Assembly (NCBI GenBank): GCA_016219235.1
Contig: JACRBO010000120.1
Location: 1 to 16,974, forward strand
Direction: 5' to 3'
Origin: Chloroflexota bacterium
Lineage (GTDB): Bacteria; Chloroflexota; Anaerolineae; Fen-1058
Length of the DNA stretch: 16,974 nt
This document shows, in pieces, positions 872 through 15,043 of this stretch. A program made the position numbers and the translations under genes. The notes below the pieces were generated by a model. It searched no databases. It saw nothing but the letters and a program-made list of their open reading frames with translations, and was not told the DNA's origin. Each line of letters begins with the position of its first letter. The stretch's first letter is position 1.

Positions 872-949
872 TGTAGGGGCGCGCGCGTCAATGACGCGAC
901 GCCCTCGCCCTTGTGGGCAAGACGGGCGAGGGCAAGCCTCGCCCCTACA
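872..949. repeat. REP-like nested palindrome filling the birA 3' spacer
   Basis: The outer arms TGTAGGGGCG (872-881) and CGCCCCTACA (940-949) are perfect 10-bp inverted repeats. Inside are a second perfect hairpin, GCCCTCGCCC (901-910) with GGGCGAGGGC (924-933), and a small palindrome CGCGTCA-A-TGACGCG (884-898). The element covers essentially the whole spacer between birA and the next gene. birA's TAG stop (947-945) lies within one outer arm, and the first base of the next gene's AGGAG lies in the other. Similar GTAGGGGCG/CGCCCCTAC palindromes are, to my recollection, common dispersed elements in Chloroflexota and cyanobacterial genomes; only one copy was seen here. Confidence 0.7.
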
Positions 950-1835
950 AATTGAGATTGTGCAGCGTCACATCGCCCGCCAGTAGTCGCTGAATCTGTC
1001 CATCCGGGGTGCGCAGCAACAACGCACCGTCGTCGTCAACGTCGTCCGATCGGCCAGTGATGATCTCGTCGTCCAGTTGCACGCGAATCTCTCGGCCTAA
1101 ATTGATCAGCCGCGCGGCCCACGCTTCGCGCAATCGATCGGCGTCATGCAGCCACGCGTAGCGTTCGACGAAAGCGACGACGATCGCTTTCAATACCGCG
1201 CTCCGATCGATTGGGTTCCCGCTCAACGTCTTCAAACTTGTGGCGATGTCGCGCAGTTCGGCGTTGCGGCTGAAATCGACGTTGACGTTGATGCCCATCC
1301 CCACGACGGCGTATTCCAACCCGTCGCCCTGAAACGAGGCTTCGGTCAGGATGCCGCCGACTTTGCGTGTGAGTGGTAATTGGTCAACTGGTAACTGGTC
1401 AACTGGTAATCGGCCAATCGGTAACTGGTCAATCGGTGATTGGGCATTATGCATTATGAATTGTGAATTATGAATTGCCACCACGTCATTCGGCCACTTC
1501 AAATCTAAGTGTAAACCCGTCGCTTGTTCAATGCCTTCGACGACGGCGAGGCCGGCCAGCATCGTGAGGCGCATCGCATGTTGGGCGGCGATCTTTGGTC
1601 TCGTCAGCAGCGAGATCGCCAGCGCCGTGCCGGGGGGCGTGAACCACGCTCGGTTTTGCCGCCCGCGCCCGCTGAGTTGTTCATCGGCGGAGATCAGCGC
1701 GATCTCGGGTGTGCCTGCGTTCGCGAGTTCACGCGCTCGATCGTTGGTGGAACCGATCGAGGCATGGTGTTCGACGGTGGAGATCAACGGCACGTCGCGC
1801 AGCGCGGCGCGGATGAGGTCGGCGGTGAGCATCAC
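945..1835 (-). CDS. birA: Biotin--[acetyl-CoA-carboxylase] ligase with an in-frame repeat insertion
   Basis: Biotin-protein ligase activates biotin with ATP and transfers it to the lysine of biotin carboxyl carrier proteins in the cytoplasm. Family motifs are clear: SIGSTNDRA (27-35), GRGRQNRAW (56-64, the biotinyl-AMP loop), KWPNDV (113-118), KVGGIL (158-163) and GMGINVN (179-185), followed by the C-terminal SH3-like domain from about 245. There is no N-terminal helix-turn-helix, so this is the monofunctional type rather than a BirA repressor. Between KWPNDV and KVGGIL, normally about 6-10 residues apart, sit about 39 residues (IDQLPIGRLPVDQLPVDQLP and flanks) encoded by word repeats. The frame is kept and both motifs are intact. 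Start is GTG 1835 or the next codon ATG 1832; both overlap the upstream channel gene's TGA, suggesting translational coupling. Stop is TAG at 947-945. Confidence 0.93.
   Translation of the reverse strand: MMLTADLIRAALRDVPLISTVEHHASIGSTNDRARELANAGTPEIALISADEQLSGRGRQNRAWFTPPGTALAISLLTRPKIAAQHAMRLTMLAGLAVVEGIEQATGLHLDLKWPNDVVAIHNSQFIMHNAQSPIDQLPIGRLPVDQLPVDQLPLTRKVGGILTEASFQGDGLEYAVVGMGINVNVDFSRNAELRDIATSLKTLSGNPIDRSAVLKAIVVAFVERYAWLHDADRLREAWAARLINLGREIRVQLDDEIITGRSDDVDDDGALLLRTPDGQIQRLLAGDVTLHNLNL
1371..1475. repeat. Intergenic-type word repeats inside birA
   Basis: On the plus strand this stretch is built of the words TGGTCAACTGGTAAC, TGGTAATCGGCCAATCGG and TGGTCAATCGGTGAT (1380-1441), followed by an AT-rich block of ATTATG/AATTGTG/AATTATG words (1445-1473). 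The end GAGTGGTAATTGGTCAACTGG is, on the minus strand, a 19/21 match to 3343-3363 in the spacer after the HIT gene. The same repeat family is therefore present both between genes and inside a gene. The inserted DNA contains no stop in the birA frame. It encodes near-repeats of the hexapeptide PVDQLP. Confidence 0.85.
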
Positions 1836-2803: not shown

Positions 2804-3304
2804 ATGGATCACATCTGGCGCGATCGCATGGCGTACATTCTGGGCGCGGCCAAACCGCCCGACGGGGTGTGCGTGTTTTGCGAAGCGCCCAGGCATGACG
2901 ACGCCACCACGCTCATCTTGCACCGCGGGCAACTGGCCTACGTCATCATGAACATCTTCCCCTACAACACCGGCCACGTGATGGTGAACCCGTACGCGCA
3001 CGTCGATTCGCCGGAGAAACTCGATGCGGCCGCGCTGACGGAGATCATGCTGCTAACCAATTTAAGTTTGCGCGCCATCCGATTGGCCTCCAACCCTCAC
3101 GCGTTCAACCTGGGCGCCAACGTGGGCAAAGCCAGCGGCGGCGGCATCGATCAGCACTTTCACTTTCACATCGTGCCGCGCTGGCCAGGCGACACCAACT
3201 TCATGCCCATCATCGCCGAGACGCGGGTGCTGCCGGAAAACTTGAATGATCTGTATGCGCGGCTGAAGCCGGCGTTCGAGCAAGTCGCAGCCGAAATGAA
3301 GTAA
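2804..3304 (+). CDS. HIT-family nucleotide phosphorylase/hydrolase (Ap4A phosphorylase-like)
   Basis: Histidine-triad enzymes cleave or transfer nucleotidyl groups from substrates such as Ap4A, ADP or AMP-amidates. The triad H-F-H-F-H-I-V is at residues 118-124, with the central histidines as the predicted nucleophile region. NTGHVMVNPYAHV (55-67) and NLGANVGKASGGGIDQH (102-118) are typical HIT segments. A Cys-X2-Cys pair at 23-26 (CVFC) suggests a structural metal site. The PRWPGDTNFMPII segment (125-137) after the triad resembles actinobacterial diadenosine tetraphosphate phosphorylases such as Mycobacterium Rv2613c, so that activity is the best guess, from recall. Length 166 aa is normal. 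It is transcribed divergently from mscS and is followed directly by a hairpin, so it may be monocistronic. Confidence 0.88.
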   Translation: MDHIWRDRMAYILGAAKPPDGVCVFCEAPRHDDATTLILHRGQLAYVIMNIFPYNTGHVMVNPYAHVDSPEKLDAAALTEIMLLTNLSLRAIRLASNPHAFNLGANVGKASGGGIDQHFHFHIVPRWPGDTNFMPIIAETRVLPENLNDLYARLKPAFEQVAAEMK

Positions 3305-3348
3305 CTGGTTAATCGGTAACTGGTTGACCGGTTACCGATTAACCAGTT
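3303..3348. repeat. 18-bp hairpin made of word repeats after the HIT gene
   Basis: Arms 3303-3320 and 3331-3348 are perfect inverted repeats of 18 bp with a 10-nt loop, starting inside the HIT stop codon (TAA 3302-3304). The arms are made of the same words (CTGGTTAATCGGTAAC) as the insertion in birA, and the repeat tail continues to about 3363. There is no T-run after the stem, so it does not look like a standard intrinsic terminator, although it could stabilise or end the HIT transcript. The remaining spacer to 3415 is AT-richer, with no confident promoter. Confidence 0.75.
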
Positions 3349-3415
3349 GACCGATTACCGCTCGACTAATCTACCAATTTACTAAGTTCCTAATTTACCC
3401 TTCTTTGGAGGCTCT

Positions 3416-4630
3416 ATGACCCACCCCCCGTCCGATCGTGATCCTGTGATTGTCAGCGCCGCCCGCACGCCCATCGGCAAATTCCTGAGCGCGTTTGGAT
3501 CGATCCCCGCGACGCAGTTGGGCGCGGTGGCGATTCGGGAAGCGGTGAAACGCGCCGGCATCGATCCGGTGTTGATCGATGAAGTGCTCATGGGCCAGGT
3601 GGTCACGGCCGGGGCGGGACAGGCGCCCGCGCGGCAGGCGGCCATCGGCGCGGGGCTGCCCGACACGGTGGGCGCGGTGACGGTGAACAAAGTGTGTGGC
3701 TCCGGCCTGGAAGCGGCGATGCTGGCCGCGTCGATGATCAAGGCTGGCGATGGCGACATCTACGTGGCGGGCGGCATGGAGAGCATGAGCACCGCGCCGT
3801 TCTTGCTGCCCGAAGGCCGCACCGGCCACAAATACGGCCACACGCAAGTAATCGATGCGGTGGTGCAAGACGGTCTGTGGTGTCCCTTCGAGAAACAAAG
3901 CATGGGCGTGGCGGCGGAGTTCATCGCGGACAAGTATGAAGTCACGCGCACCGAAATGGACGAGTTCGCATTCCAGAGCCATCAGAAAGCGGTGGCCGCG
4001 ATCGAGGCGGGCAAGTTCAAGGCCGAGATCGCGCCGGTCGAGATCAAGGATGCCAAAGGCCGCGCGACCGTCGTCGATACGGATGAAGGCCCGCGCCGCG
4101 ACACATCGATCGAAGCACTCGCAAAACTTAAGCCCGCGTTCAAGGCGGATGGCCGTGTGACGGCGGGCAATGCGCCAGGCCTGAATGACGGTGGCGCAGC
4201 CGTCGTCGTGATGAGCCGCGCCAGAGCAATCGAGTTGGGGGTGAAGCCGCTGGCGTGCATCGTCGGTTACGCACACGCAGCCGTTCAGCCGCTGTGGTTG
4301 TTCATCGCGCCCGCGAAGGCTATGCCCAAATTGTTGACTAAGATCAACTGGTCGCTGACTGACATTGATCTGATCGAAATCAACGAAGCGTTCGCCGCGC
4401 AGGTCATCGCCGATGCGCGCGACATGGAGCAGGCCGGGCACGCCTGGGATTGGAACAAGGTCAACGTCAACGGTGGCGCGATCGCGCTGGGGCATCCGGT
4501 GGGGTGCAGCGGCGCGCGCGTGCTGGGCACGCTGATCTACGCGCTGAAAGATCGCGGCCTGCAGCGCGGTCTCGCCACGTTGTGCCTGGGCGGCGGCGAA
4601 GCGGTGGCGATGGCGATAGAGATCGAGTAA
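3416..4630 (+). CDS. Thiolase (acetyl-CoA C-acetyltransferase)
   Basis: Thiolase II condenses two acetyl-CoA to acetoacetyl-CoA or runs the reverse thiolysis in fatty-acid breakdown. Length 404 aa fits the family. Catalytic features are all present: the acyl-accepting cysteine C94 in NKVCGSGLE, NEAFA at 323-327, H360 in GGAIALGHPVGCSGAR, and C390 in LCLGGGEAVA. AARTPIGKF near the N terminus and GGMESMS (119-125) are family signatures. A small deviation is TAGNAPGLNDGG (249-260), where most relatives have TAGNASGxNDG. GGAGG at 3407-3411 is 4 nt from the ATG. The next gene encodes the following enzyme, 3-hydroxyacyl-CoA dehydrogenase. No enoyl-CoA hydratase or acyl-CoA dehydrogenase is nearby, so direction (butyrate/PHB-type synthesis or degradation) cannot be decided. 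Confidence 0.94.
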   Translation: MTHPPSDRDPVIVSAARTPIGKFLSAFGSIPATQLGAVAIREAVKRAGIDPVLIDEVLMGQVVTAGAGQAPARQAAIGAGLPDTVGAVTVNKVCGSGLEAAMLAASMIKAGDGDIYVAGGMESMSTAPFLLPEGRTGHKYGHTQVIDAVVQDGLWCPFEKQSMGVAAEFIADKYEVTRTEMDEFAFQSHQKAVAAIEAGKFKAEIAPVEIKDAKGRATVVDTDEGPRRDTSIEALAKLKPAFKADGRVTAGNAPGLNDGGAAVVVMSRARAIELGVKPLACIVGYAHAAVQPLWLFIAPAKAMPKLLTKINWSLTDIDLIEINEAFAAQVIADARDMEQAGHAWDWNKVNVNGGAIALGHPVGCSGARVLGTLIYALKDRGLQRGLATLCLGGGEAVAMAIEIE

Positions 4631-4703
4631 CGAGAAACGAGTAACGAGAAACGAGTAACGAGTGAGAATGGACTTGACTCATCACTCATTACTCGTTACT
4701 CGT
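4625..4703. repeat. GAGTAACGAGAAAC direct repeats and hairpin after thiolase
   Basis: The 14-nt unit GAGTAACGAGAAAC occurs twice in tandem from 4625 and then once as a partial unit. It begins within the thiolase stop region (TAA 4628-4630). ACGAGTAACGAGT (4651-4663) is perfectly inverted at 4691-4703. The block fills most of the spacer before the dehydrogenase gene. It has the same architecture as the other word repeats here but a different word. Confidence 0.75.
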
Positions 4704-4722
4704 CATCAATCATTCAAAGACC

Positions 4723-10771: not shown

Positions 10772-10823
10772 AAACATCAAGACCTCGATGGGTTTAGTTG
10801 GGCCATCGAGGTCTTGATGTTTT
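10772..10823. terminator. Bidirectional terminator between convergent genes
   Basis: A perfect 20-bp stem (10772-10791 with 10803-10822, core GACCTCGATGG/CCATCGAGGTC) encloses an 11-nt loop. T-runs flank both sides (TTTT at 10820-10823 on plus; AAA at 10772-10774 gives TTT on minus). It lies between the M23 gene and the minus-strand beta-propeller operon and can end both. Confidence 0.88.
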
Positions 10824-10852: not shown

Positions 10853-12982
10853 TTAGCGGCGTATGACCGGCAAATAGATTGGGTGTGAGCCAACGACGAA
10901 GGAACCCCAGGTGATCTCGTCGATGAGGGTGCCGACGGCGCGATCTGTGTCGGGCATTGCTAGTTCGATCCGCAGGGTGACGGTGGGCGCAGTCCACGTC
11001 GAAACATCGAACCATTGATGCGTCCAGTTCGTGGCCGTGATGGGCAGCGTGAGTGTCAGCGTGTCAGCCGGGCCAACGAGGTAGGCCGTGAGCGTATCGC
11101 TGAGCGGATCGGCGGCAGTGACTTGATACAGCAGCGACAGCGTGCCGCCGGTCAGCGTGAGCGGCACGGTGATCGTCTGCTCGATAGTGCTGAGATAGGG
11201 TTCGCTGCTGATCGTATCCGATGGGACGATGCCGCCCAACAAGACTGCGTAGTTGCCGGTGTGGGCAGTGGTGGTGATTGTCGCTGTGAGATCGCCCGTT
11301 GGATTCCACGCCGACAGCGTACCGCTTTCAAAGTGGCCGTCATTGAGTTGATCATCGAGCGGCGGTAGATAAAGTGTTGGCAGAGTCGAGGAGGCGGGCA
11401 CGGCCACATTGAACAGTGGCGGCAATACCCCGAACGCGTTGCGAGTAGTAGTGAGCGTGTAAGTATCGCTCGAAGCGAAGTAGAGATCGAATAGGCCGTC
11501 GTGCCGAGAGCGGCCGGTATTTGTGGATGATGAGTCTGTCGTAATTGAAGCAACGGTCACGGGCTGTTCGCGATTGCCAAGAACTTGGCCAGTGAGCGAG
11601 TATTGATAAACGGTAGTGGAGGTGTCGCCGTTGCCATTTGGATACACTTCCACATTGAAAGAATGGTCGTGTGCGCGACTGCGAAAATAGTAAGTGTGGC
11701 CGGCAATCCCTGTGTAGGCTGCGCTTATTGCGGTCGTTTGAGGTTGCCAGTCTGTCCAGTCGTCCGCGGCGCCATCCTTAACCTGGATATCATAGCTTGC
11801 GATACCAGATGGGCCTACATCACTTCCTGTCCACGTAACGGTAAAGATTTCAGGCGACCAGGCAGACAAGGGCTCTACTCGCGACACTGGCCGTTCACGT
11901 TCAAGCGGTTCCCAGTCCACGTTATAGCTGTTGGCGCAACTTACATAGAAACTGTACGGGCCGACACCATTGATGGTGACGCGGCCAACTGACCCATAGG
12001 CCAGGTAGATTTGTCCGCCTGAATTGAAGTAATAGATGCGTGCAAAGGTCAACATCTGACCATCGGGGGACCAACCAGACAACCACATTTCGCCCGTTGA
12101 GTCATGCAGATCAAAAATCGTGTGCAACGCTGTACTATCGGTATTGATAATGGCGAGCTCGTTCATCGTGTCGCCATCACTATCATAGTCGAGTGCCAGG
12201 CGGGTGCCGTCGGGTGACCAACGCAGATGCTGGGCATAAGCGAGGTTGGTCGCTACCGGGTGTTGGTTGCTGCCATCCGCGTTCATGATCCAAATGGCAT
12301 TAGTTGTCCCACTCTTGATCCAGGCGATCTGGCTACCGTCCGGCGACCAGGCAGGCTGTGTATCATCAACCAGATCGGCGGTCAGGGGTGTGCTATTCGT
12401 GCCGTCGGCGTTCATGACATAGATTTCCCAGTCCAAGTCCTGTTGGTAGGCAAAAGCGATCCGATTGCCATCCGGGGACCACACAGGCCCGCGATGGTGA
12501 TTGCTATCCCAGGTTAATCGTGTCAGACCTGTTCCATCGATGTTGATCGTAAAGATATGCCACTCAAAGACGTTCCACTCTTTTTGCAGTGCTCGGCTGA
12601 AGACTACCCGGGTAGCGTTTCGGTTGAGATGCGGCTCGATATCGTGATATTGATCCGCCGTCAACCGCCAATTCGGATCAATCCAGGCGCGATCAATCAG
12701 GTTGATATCCCAAGAGCCATTACAGATTGTCTGATAAACGGCGATGGTCCAGTCCATTTCGCCTTCTGTTGGGCCTGATTGAGATGGCGAGACAATGCAT
12801 CCATCAGTCTTGTCCAGTATTGGCGGCAGATCGTCTAGACGGATGCGGTTTTTAAGACCGGAAATGGCTTGTAAATCTAACTGCTGCTCGTTCTGCGCCA
12901 CACTCGGCCCAGCCGAAGTCAACAAACCCAGCACTGCTGCTACGATGACGACTTGCCTAAACCAGCGACTTGCAGAGCGCAT
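10853..12982 (-). CDS. Secreted TolB/PD40-type beta-propeller protein, paralog A
   Basis: This 709-aa protein starts with a Sec signal peptide (to about residue 30, GPSVAQ). PD40/TolB-like blades follow, with SPDG motifs at 169-172, 213-216, 256-259 and 305-308, each near an 'IYVMNADG'-type strand, and a degenerate blade before them. Then come a fibronectin-like domain (about 372-450, ending TYYFRSRAHD), a carboxypeptidase-regulatory-like segment (461-540, YSLTGQVLGN) and a jelly-roll module (547-693, DGHFESGTLSAWN). It ends GSHPIYLPVIRR. TolB-like propellers usually bind partners; nothing indicates an enzyme, and the function is unknown. AAGGAG sits 8 nt before the ATG. It begins 39 nt after its paralog, with no promoter visible between them, so it is the second gene of an operon. 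Its first 120 residues are unlike the paralog's. Confidence 0.88.
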   Translation of the reverse strand: MRSASRWFRQVVIVAAVLGLLTSAGPSVAQNEQQLDLQAISGLKNRIRLDDLPPILDKTDGCIVSPSQSGPTEGEMDWTIAVYQTICNGSWDINLIDRAWIDPNWRLTADQYHDIEPHLNRNATRVVFSRALQKEWNVFEWHIFTINIDGTGLTRLTWDSNHHRGPVWSPDGNRIAFAYQQDLDWEIYVMNADGTNSTPLTADLVDDTQPAWSPDGSQIAWIKSGTTNAIWIMNADGSNQHPVATNLAYAQHLRWSPDGTRLALDYDSDGDTMNELAIINTDSTALHTIFDLHDSTGEMWLSGWSPDGQMLTFARIYYFNSGGQIYLAYGSVGRVTINGVGPYSFYVSCANSYNVDWEPLERERPVSRVEPLSAWSPEIFTVTWTGSDVGPSGIASYDIQVKDGAADDWTDWQPQTTAISAAYTGIAGHTYYFRSRAHDHSFNVEVYPNGNGDTSTTVYQYSLTGQVLGNREQPVTVASITTDSSSTNTGRSRHDGLFDLYFASSDTYTLTTTRNAFGVLPPLFNVAVPASSTLPTLYLPPLDDQLNDGHFESGTLSAWNPTGDLTATITTTAHTGNYAVLLGGIVPSDTISSEPYLSTIEQTITVPLTLTGGTLSLLYQVTAADPLSDTLTAYLVGPADTLTLTLPITATNWTHQWFDVSTWTAPTVTLRIELAMPDTDRAVGTLIDEITWGSFVVGSHPIYLPVIRR

Positions 12983-13021: not shown

Positions 13022-15043
13022 CTACCGAGCGATTATCGGCAGATAGATCGGGTGTGAGCCACCGACGAAGGAACCCCAGGTGACTTCATCGATGAGGACG
13101 CCGACGGCGCGCTCTTTATCGGGCGTTGATAGTTCAAGCCGCAAGGTGGCGGTGGGTGCAGTCCACGCGGAAACGTCGAACCACTGATGGGTCCAATCCG
13201 CCACCGTGATGGGCAATGTGAGTGTCAGCGTGTCAGCCGGGCCGACGAGATAGGCTATGAGTGTGTCGCTGAGCGGATCAGCGGCGGTAACTTTATACAG
13301 CAGCGATAATGTGCCATCGGTCAGCGTCAGCGGCACGGTGATCGTTTGCTCAATGGTGCTGAGGTACGGCCCGCTGCTGATCATGTCCGAGGGGACGCTG
13401 CCGCCCAGTATGGCCGCATAGCTGCCGGTGTGTGCGGTGGTGGTGATCGTCGGGATGAGCAAGCCGCTCGGGTTCCAGGCGGATAGATTGCCGCTTTCGA
13501 AATGACCGTCGCTGATCTGATCATCGAGCGGGGGCAGGTAGATGATCGGGCTTGAGGACGTATCAGAGACGACAACGTTTAACATCGGCGGCAGAGTGCC
13601 GAAAGCAGTGCGCGTGGCGGAGAGCGATAGCGTGCCGCTGAGGTTGTAGTAGAGCGTGAAGTTGCCGAGATGATCGGTCTTGACTTGGTTGAGCGCGGCG
13701 GGCGTGGTCTGGGCCTGCGCCAGAGCGATGGCCTGAGCGCGATTGCCTTTGATGGTGCCGGTCAAAGCGTAGAGCGGTGTGGTGGTGAGGGTGTCGCCCT
13801 CACCGTTCGGATAGGCTTCGAGGTTACCGGCCTTGTCGCGGGCGCGTGATTGGAAGTAGTAGGTGTGACCGAGTTGTCCGTTGAACTGCAGAGCGGTCTG
13901 AGTGGTCGAGGTGATCCAATCGATCCATTGGTCTAATGCACCATCACGATATTGAATGTCGTAGGAGGCGACACCCGACGTTGCGTCGCTACCGCTCCAA
14001 GTCACAAGAAACTGAGGCGCAACGGCGTGTGCGGGAGAACTGGCCGTAGATGTCGGTGGTGTCAGATCGGATGAGTCGGAAGTCTGCCAGTCGGGCGAGA
14101 CAAAACAGCTCGTCGGAATCAAGCGCGTTATTGAGTGATCGTTCAGGTTGACCGCATCGATATACGAAGCGGTCATGGAGTAGGTTCCCCCGACTAGCGG
14201 CCAATACTCATTGGCAAAGGCAATGGCTTGACTGTCTGGCGACCAGGCCGGGGTGAAATGTGTGTAACTATTTGACGCAAAACCAGCCGGAAAAGTGAGC
14301 CCCGTGCCATCCGTGTTGAGGTAGGCTACTTCGGTCCAACCATCGCTATTGCCGTCAGCGGTAACGGCCAGCCGTGTGCCATCGGGCGACCAGCGCGGGC
14401 TATCCAGCAAAGATGCCGATGCCAGCAGGTGTTGGCCCGATCCGTTCGCGGTCATGAACCACAAATCCATATCAGAGCTGCCAAAGCCGGACAAAAACGC
14501 GATTTGTGTCCCATTGGGTGACCAGGTCGGGCTTGTATCCTCAGCCGTTCTGGTCGTAAGGCGAGTCCGGCCGGTACCGTCGGCGTTCATCACATAAATG
14601 TCAGTATTGCCCGACACTAGCGCGCTGAAGGCAATCTTTGAGCCATCGGGCGACCAGGTTGGCGCGGCTTCGTTTTCTGGCGTGTTCGTCAAGCGGGTCT
14701 GGTTAGAACCATCCGCCCCCATGATGTAGATTTCTTGGTTGCCATCGCGGGTGGAGATGAAAACGATTTGACTGGCGTTGTTATTGAAGCGCGGCACATA
14801 GTTGCTACCAAGTGTGTTGGTCCTCTGAGCGAGGTTGGCGCCGTCCGCCGAGGCGGTGTAGATTTCCAGATTGCTCACATTGGCGCATGACACAAAGGTT
14901 AGAAGCGAGACGTTGGTTAGGACTGTGGAGTGTGTGGACACAAGCCATGTGCCCTGCGCCACCCCCGGCCACGCTGAAGTGAGTAAACCCAGTACTGCCA
15001 CTACGATGATGATCTGCTTGAACCATCGACTTGCGAAACGCAT
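13022..15043 (-). CDS. Secreted TolB/PD40-type beta-propeller protein, paralog B
   Basis: This protein has 673 aa and the same layout as its downstream neighbour: signal peptide (to about 30, WPGVAQ), propeller blades with SPDG/SPNG/SPDS at 131, 175, 219 and 268, a fibronectin-like domain (335-412, GHTYYFQSRARDKAGN), a regulatory-like segment (424-503) and the jelly-roll module (512-658), ending GSHPIYLPIIAR. The last 170 residues are about four fifths identical to paralog A by eye, and the signal peptides are also alike, whereas the propellers have diverged. The ribosome-binding site (AAGGAG, 8 nt before ATG) matches that of paralog A, so the duplication included the leader. A weak promoter (ATGACA, 19 bp, TATAGA at 15082-15077) lies over the upstream terminator. 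It is probably the first gene of the two-gene operon. Role unknown, likely cell-surface binding. Confidence 0.88.
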   Translation of the reverse strand: MRFASRWFKQIIIVVAVLGLLTSAWPGVAQGTWLVSTHSTVLTNVSLLTFVSCANVSNLEIYTASADGANLAQRTNTLGSNYVPRFNNNASQIVFISTRDGNQEIYIMGADGSNQTRLTNTPENEAAPTWSPDGSKIAFSALVSGNTDIYVMNADGTGRTRLTTRTAEDTSPTWSPNGTQIAFLSGFGSSDMDLWFMTANGSGQHLLASASLLDSPRWSPDGTRLAVTADGNSDGWTEVAYLNTDGTGLTFPAGFASNSYTHFTPAWSPDSQAIAFANEYWPLVGGTYSMTASYIDAVNLNDHSITRLIPTSCFVSPDWQTSDSSDLTPPTSTASSPAHAVAPQFLVTWSGSDATSGVASYDIQYRDGALDQWIDWITSTTQTALQFNGQLGHTYYFQSRARDKAGNLEAYPNGEGDTLTTTPLYALTGTIKGNRAQAIALAQAQTTPAALNQVKTDHLGNFTLYYNLSGTLSLSATRTAFGTLPPMLNVVVSDTSSSPIIYLPPLDDQISDGHFESGNLSAWNPSGLLIPTITTTAHTGSYAAILGGSVPSDMISSGPYLSTIEQTITVPLTLTDGTLSLLYKVTAADPLSDTLIAYLVGPADTLTLTLPITVADWTHQWFDVSAWTAPTATLRLELSTPDKERAVGVLIDEVTWGSFVGGSHPIYLPIIAR

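Follow-up and report, generated by a model that had tools for sequence, protein, structure and literature searches.

The gene birA, which encodes a biotin protein ligase, lies on the minus strand of the window, by which we mean the whole stretch of 16,974 nucleotides of Chloroflexota DNA analysed here. It comes directly after a gene for an MscS-like protein, with an overlap of 4 bases. Its product contains the domains BPL_LplA_LipB and BPL_C, has the ligase fold and thus belongs to the BirA family. Part of the gene is built from short repeat units, which we refer to as ‘words’. The relevant features, numbered by position in the window, are as follows.

945..1835, minus strand: birA, biotin protein ligase, 296 amino acids (list of open reading frames; Pfam BPL_LplA_LipB and BPL_C)
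1482..1499, minus strand: codons for KWPNDV, the end of the strand before the loop
1365..1481, minus strand: word-built loop of 117 nucleotides and 39 amino acids, VAIHNSQFIMHNAQSPIDQLPIGRLPVDQLPVDQLPLTR (pLDDT below 50 at residues 126-143)
1446..1476, minus strand: first word slot, YAATKCA heptads, read as IHNSQFIMHN (TRF period 7 and pattern matches)
1374..1443, minus strand: second word slot, ACCRRTT(R) 7- and 8-mers, read as PVDQLP (TRF period 15 and pattern matches)
1347..1364, minus strand: codons for KVGGIL, the strand after the loop, with the conserved lysine
3301..3363, plus strand: ACC words as a 22-bp hairpin, intergenic, between the HIT gene and the thiolase gene
4624..4705, plus strand: CGAGTAA/CGAGAAA heptads, then complementary ACTCATC-type words (hairpin)

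A sequence-only reading of this DNA had described a block of repeat words between KWPNDV and KVGGIL, at 1371-1475, inserted in frame and without a stop. The block is there, 39 codons made of two word families, although its limits are slightly wider (1365-1481). The birA frame is open throughout; the other two forward frames have 1 and 5 stops. The units are tandem and 7 bp long, as in the repeats termed STRR (period 7 in the first slot; period 15, that is 7 + 8, in the second). ACCRRTTRACCRRTTACC, with at most one mismatch allowed, matches the window 8 times, compared with 0 in each of 200 dinucleotide-preserving shuffles; AATTCAYAATTCA matches it 3 times, compared with a shuffle mean of 0.03. 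The block shares its words with intergenic spacers, as had been claimed, and the 19 of 21 bases at which 1371-1391 (minus strand) was said to match 3343-3363, between the HIT and thiolase genes, are exact. This likeness is one of sequence and not of structure: the spacer copy (3298-3362) folds as a hairpin at z -8.06, whereas the birA copy is one-armed, with no palindromic hairpin and no excess structure (z -0.21). Rfam, at gathering scores, gave no match in the window. Predicted promoters in the loop (minus strand, 1446-1481) were considered and set aside; 2 of the 3 sites found fall there, against 1.3 expected (sd 1.2), which is not evidence.

In the AlphaFold model of BirA, the insert is a low-confidence loop between two confident strands, on a confident core, which agrees with the surface hairpin that had been proposed. 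Structure comparison gives 33 residues at this place in BirA and 3 in the Methanocaldococcus jannaschii BPL (2ej9). The two motifs usually stand only a few residues apart, as the earlier reading had supposed: 6 residues follow KWPND in 15 of 27 other Anaerolineae loci (range 6-27), and in 34 of the 75 further loci that have both motifs (of 78; range 6-28). In the window there are 40. The nearest locus compared comes from Thermoflexales bacterium BIN20 (its genome, G001, is likewise the nearest genome compared), and the nearest named relatives of the lineage are Thermoflexales (Anaerolineae, Chloroflexota). Outside the loop, the two BirA proteins are identical at 226 of 254 residues, and these flanks are under purifying selection (254 codons; dN 0.069, dS 0.58, dN/dS about 0.12). 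Within the loop, the first 25 nucleotides are identical, and then CTTCAGC heptads in BIN20 replace the ACC block of the window. The junction at the end of the gene also differs: at 872-949 in the window, a palindrome, TGTAGGGGCG...CGCCCCTACA (-52.3 kcal/mol), provides the birA stop codon (945-947), and BIN20 lacks this palindrome at the same junction. A tblastn search of plasmids returned 45 records, all below 60% identity and uninformative.

Other relatives vary at this loop too. A protein search gave 120 BirA sequences among the matches listed, the window's included. The loop is short in 47 of them (9-12 amino acids) and long in 73 (13-53 amino acids). Classed by regular expressions on the peptides, with the DNA examined for a few loops, the long loops contain words of the types PVDQLP, NNEQLTM, PSSLIPHP, PSAFSLQP, NQRPTT, LPRREGPGE, SLTLPGLRDQ and DDGRRTT, and 9 are unclassed. 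Most close relatives have another word block at the loop, which is the least conserved part of BirA. Relatives do not, then, all share a conserved loop, and a conserved, clade-specific loop is ruled out by lengths of 9-53 amino acids and by the differing word families. Nor is the insert the single rare event that had been suggested, since 73 of the 120 sequences have long loops there, and other enzymes, described below, have inserts too. A tree of BirA computed without the loop implies at least 19 changes between long and short and at least 49 changes of word type, counts that are rough because support is poor for many of the inner branches (43 of 117 are open); the long/short changes fall to 17 when branches below 80 are collapsed, and to 10 when those below 95 are. 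Of 20 pairs whose flanks are 93% identical or more, 15 share the word type and 5 differ in it. Two pairs have different words in the second slot on flanks identical at 255 of 256 residues (P0007/P0010) and 249 of 256 (P0013/P0018). In a third (P0061/P0067; 246 of 256), one loop is longer by a SLTLPGLRE block.

The ACC words are dispersed in a few genomes and absent from most. Exact sites of ACCRRTTRACCRRTTACC number 33 in G001, 23 in G005, 5 in G002 and 0 in G003 and G004; the reversed pattern, used as a control, gives 0, 1, 2, 0 and 0 in the same genomes. Of 396 genomes in the class, just 5 contain ACCRRTTRACCRRTTACC; the two besides G001, G005 and G002 have it once each. AATTCAYAATTCA has 6 matches in G001, 2 of them in birA, and 0-1 in each of the other four. 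G001 has CAGCCTTCAGCCTTCAGC at two places, in birA and in the glycyl-tRNA synthetase gene, each time within an open frame; G002 has it at three. CCAACGACCAACGACC, one 16-base guess for the NQRPTT word, had no match in the 5 genomes. A census of periods across about 128 kb (the window, the BIN20 locus and 20 G001 contigs, 8 of them N-masked) found 9 period-7 arrays after subtraction of the masked contigs. Shuffled sequence had none, and the counts for the remaining periods between 5 and 12 were 0-3. Dispersed intergenic copies able to form hairpins, another property of STRR-type repeats, are present here, in the 33 sites of G001 and in the copy at 3298-3362. A single transfer from the HIT-thiolase spacer to birA is rejected: copies of the words are scattered over the nearest genome, and other families share the same birA site. 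The hairpin at 4624..4705 lies between the genes for thiolase and 3-hydroxyacyl-CoA dehydrogenase and folds at z -4.66; TGACGAG heptads akin to this family occur in G001 (locus L106, 5855-5913).

Most copies are outside genes. Words on both strands occur in 21 of 59 ACC-word clusters. Those at least 40 amino acids inside an open reading frame of at least 150 amino acids number only 5 of the 59 examined (in Nnr, KsgA, MutL and two function-unassigned proteins), so coding ACC copies are the exception. They are found nevertheless, as are copies of other words, in frame in unrelated housekeeping genes, in the manner of Rickettsia palindromic elements (RPE): birA, nnr, ksgA, mutL and glyS in G001, and leuS in G002. 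The sequence-only reading had advised a search for the words inside other genes. ACC words lie in Nnr, KsgA and MutL of G001. CTTCAGC words lie in the fused glycyl-tRNA synthetase (GlyS) of G001, between the alpha and beta domains, and in G002 they separate the catalytic from the anticodon-binding domain of the leucyl-tRNA synthetase (LeuS). The MutL and GlyS inserts are weaker evidence, because they lie in linkers that are variable anyway. A frame of 331 amino acids with CTTCAGC words in G002 (L195), whose protein was not recognised, is left out of the counts. The two function-unassigned proteins, one from G001 (L159) and one from G005 (L219), are similar to each other and carry PVDQLP-type words at matching positions, before SISRYAEDMPLID.

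KsgA and Nnr repeat the pattern of BirA, each at one site: before VVANIPYY in KsgA and before VLVGPGNNGGDG in Nnr. KsgA loops, parsed in 115 of 120 listed sequences, are plain (at most 27 amino acids) in 72, of the type SLRG...LAMT in 19, made of ACC words in 13, of HPSTARR in 7 and long in some other way in 4, one of which is of the SLRG type by eye. By DNA, the KsgA site holds ACC words in G001, a palindromic GTCATTGCGAGG repeat in G004 (contig position 3536-3547, between the halves of the gene) and a plain loop of 20 residues in G003. Counts of the GTCATTGCGAGG repeat in the five genomes, from G001 to G005, are 38, 3, 49, 36 and 35 (control, 0-1). In the G004 gene (L245), a second repeat (CACCCTTCGACTGCG...) is seemingly nested inside the GTCATTGCGAGG palindrome. 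The KsgA insert of G001 (residues 109-143) is, by AlphaFold, a low-confidence loop on a confident core, and structure comparison gives 38 residues there and 2 in Bacillus subtilis RsmA (6ifs). Among 120 Nnr sequences, whose spacers were classed by alignment, 97 have a plain spacer of 17 residues, 6 have ACC-word inserts and 3 have another repeat; since the spacer is plain in 97 of the 120, the insert is the derived state in Nnr. The match of Nnr to TM0922 (2ax3) begins only after the insert. A repeat peptide, NLAKG...QPSQG, occupies the ACC-word site in three Nnr sequences (P0301, P0317 and P0325). The Nnr of G001 (P0241) is named ‘Planctomycetaceae bacterium’ at its source and the genome is titled Thermoflexales, a conflict between public labels. 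In BirA and KsgA alike, the words substitute for about 8-10 residues of a short turn, rather than interrupting it.

The words that appear in proteins are those that can be read. Ideal arrays of ACCAGTTGACCAGTT are open in 4 of 6 frames, those of AATTCAC and CTTCAGC in 3 of 6, and those of AATTCAT in none. AATTCAC reads as NSQFTIH, CTTCAGC as LQPSAFS and ACCAGTTGACCAGTT as PVDQLP; only stop-free word forms are found as peptides, and these match the open readings of the arrays. Natural ACC clusters that are non-coding and 45 nucleotides or longer number 19, and of their 114 frames 24 are open. With so few open frames, insertion into a gene needs luck with both frame and place, which fits the 5 in 59 found. 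The stop-free forms also bear on a different proposal, that the inserts never reach the protein. In mitochondria, inserts known as byps are bypassed by the ribosome, and introns are removed from the RNA. The KsgA and Nnr inserts fold as long hairpins (-83.7, -52.9 and -37.8 kcal/mol, that of G001 KsgA among them), as such elements might; the birA insert has none, and bypass would not require that stop-free words be used and stop-bearing AATTCAT arrays not. Our ascertainment is biased to open frames, and frame-breaking inserts may be missed. On balance, we consider bypass or removal highly improbable.

In our view, the birA insert is very probably a translated copy of the dispersed word repeats, which are kept in genes only at sites that are permissive and in forms that preserve the frame and contain no stop. 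Most copies stand outside long open reading frames, and many of them form hairpins; we suppose that the words are spread by some process at the DNA level whose main targets are spacers, with slippage, template switching at hairpins and a mobile enzyme as candidates. To survive inside a gene, a copy would have to lie in a solvent-exposed loop or linker, be of a length that preserves the frame and consist of words that can be read without a stop. The tip of the BirA beta-hairpin, from KWPND to the conserved lysine, would then be a site of recurrent landing and replacement, and coding copies would survive there by tolerance. We infer that the loop reaches the protein and that the enzyme tolerates it without benefit. 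As for the mobile enzyme, REP and REPIN elements are dispersed, palindromic, intergenic sequences moved by RAYT (Y1) transposases, and the GTCATTGCGAGG repeat of the KsgA loops is of this general type. Four of the five genomes have Y1_Tnp matches, but G005, rich in ACC words (23 sites), has none, which weakens the case for a RAYT/Y1 transposase as mover of these words.

Pairs of proteins that differ in little but the loop allow several readings. Besides the BirA pairs, two KsgA proteins (P0122/P0128) agree at all 259 of 259 residues that flank the loop, which consists of ACC words in one and is plain in the other. Unrelated loops on identical flanks hint at whole-loop exchange by recombination, which strain mosaics in the assemblies could mimic. 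A bolder proposal, which we advance as a long shot, is that word arrays are exchangeable loop cassettes, and that recombination rewrites the surface loops of essential enzymes at the speed at which strains diverge. Equally speculative is its corollary that unrelated repeat families rotate through the BirA hairpin, the KsgA site before VVANIPYY and the corresponding Nnr site. If this were so, enzymes identical outside the loop would form a standing library of loop variants. Near-identical flanks (255 of 256 in BirA, 259 of 259 in KsgA) with differing loops also look like the fast replacement expected of selection, whereby a variable surface loop would be useful, for partner choice, stability or avoidance, and the words would be its raw material. 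This we judge unlikely. The same words appear in BirA, Nnr, KsgA, MutL, GlyS and LeuS, which are unrelated; the loops are predicted to be disordered; short, plain loops are frequent in relatives; and many loops are recognisable repeats without a common motif. The question of artefact arises, finally: the words might have caused chimeric joins inside birA. Dispersed repeats do produce misjoins, the relatives are all metagenomic or draft assemblies, and identical flanks with unrelated loops could be strain mosaics. However, an assembly that had jumped elsewhere at such a word would not come back to the correct half of the same gene; four source collections (ncbi, jgi, ena and lgn) contain assemblies with the pattern; and the first 25 loop nucleotides are common to the window and BIN20, with the window's reading frame intact. 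We find artefact scarcely credible. Translation and tolerance of dispersed words remains our preferred account of the loop.

Dispersed repeats of this kind have precedents, although few became protein. REPs apart, an STRR is reportedly present within an RNase P RNA gene, according to the title of a paper of 1997. Passages of two papers describe RPE. One, a review, gives their length as about 150 bp and reports in-frame insertion into genes that are unrelated (PMC10969869); the other locates them in housekeeping proteins, in segments that are non-structured, and also names Wolbachia and M. jannaschii (PMC2996958). The Chloroflexota words resemble RPE, and the protein-coding palindromes of Wolbachia and Methanocaldococcus, in being dispersed repeats in frame in unrelated housekeeping genes. 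Compared by these partial descriptions, they differ from the defined, approximately 150-bp families of RPE in their unit, a word of 7 or 15 bases in arrays of variable length. They differ, too, in that the window's birA copy has no palindrome, in that several unrelated families replace one another at a single site, and in the host phylum. Passages of the literature on heptamers describe the STRR of filamentous cyanobacteria, mostly 7-bp units, intergenic, hairpin-capable and of unknown function (PMC2670836), and the TAACTGA arrays of Beggiatoaceae, of which a few copies occur in open reading frames, successfully mainly at protein ends (PMC4679880). As far as these passages go, the Chloroflexota arrays are alike in being heptameric, intergenic and hairpin-forming, with some copies in open reading frames; their words differ from TAACTGA, and their inserts sit in the middle of catalytic domains, not mainly at protein ends. 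In a search of one open-access library, titles and the opening lines of abstracts gave nothing that we recognised as a report of word repeats in frame in Chloroflexota, or of such repeats in BirA.

These loops add a free-living, uncultured Chloroflexota lineage to the few cases in which dispersed repeats have turned into protein sequence, and in a stronger form: unrelated repeats independently fill the same loop of an essential enzyme, the rest of which is conserved or even identical. They amount to a natural experiment that tests which loops of a protein can take up foreign peptides. Because the coding copies have precise counterparts that are empty or differently filled, short repeats can here be caught in the act of moving.

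Elsewhere in the window, the open reading frames at 10853-12982 and 13022-15043 are neighbouring paralogues that share a stretch of 300 nucleotides at 84% identity, and a perfect 20-nucleotide inverted repeat with an 11-nucleotide gap lies at 10772-10822, between convergent genes.
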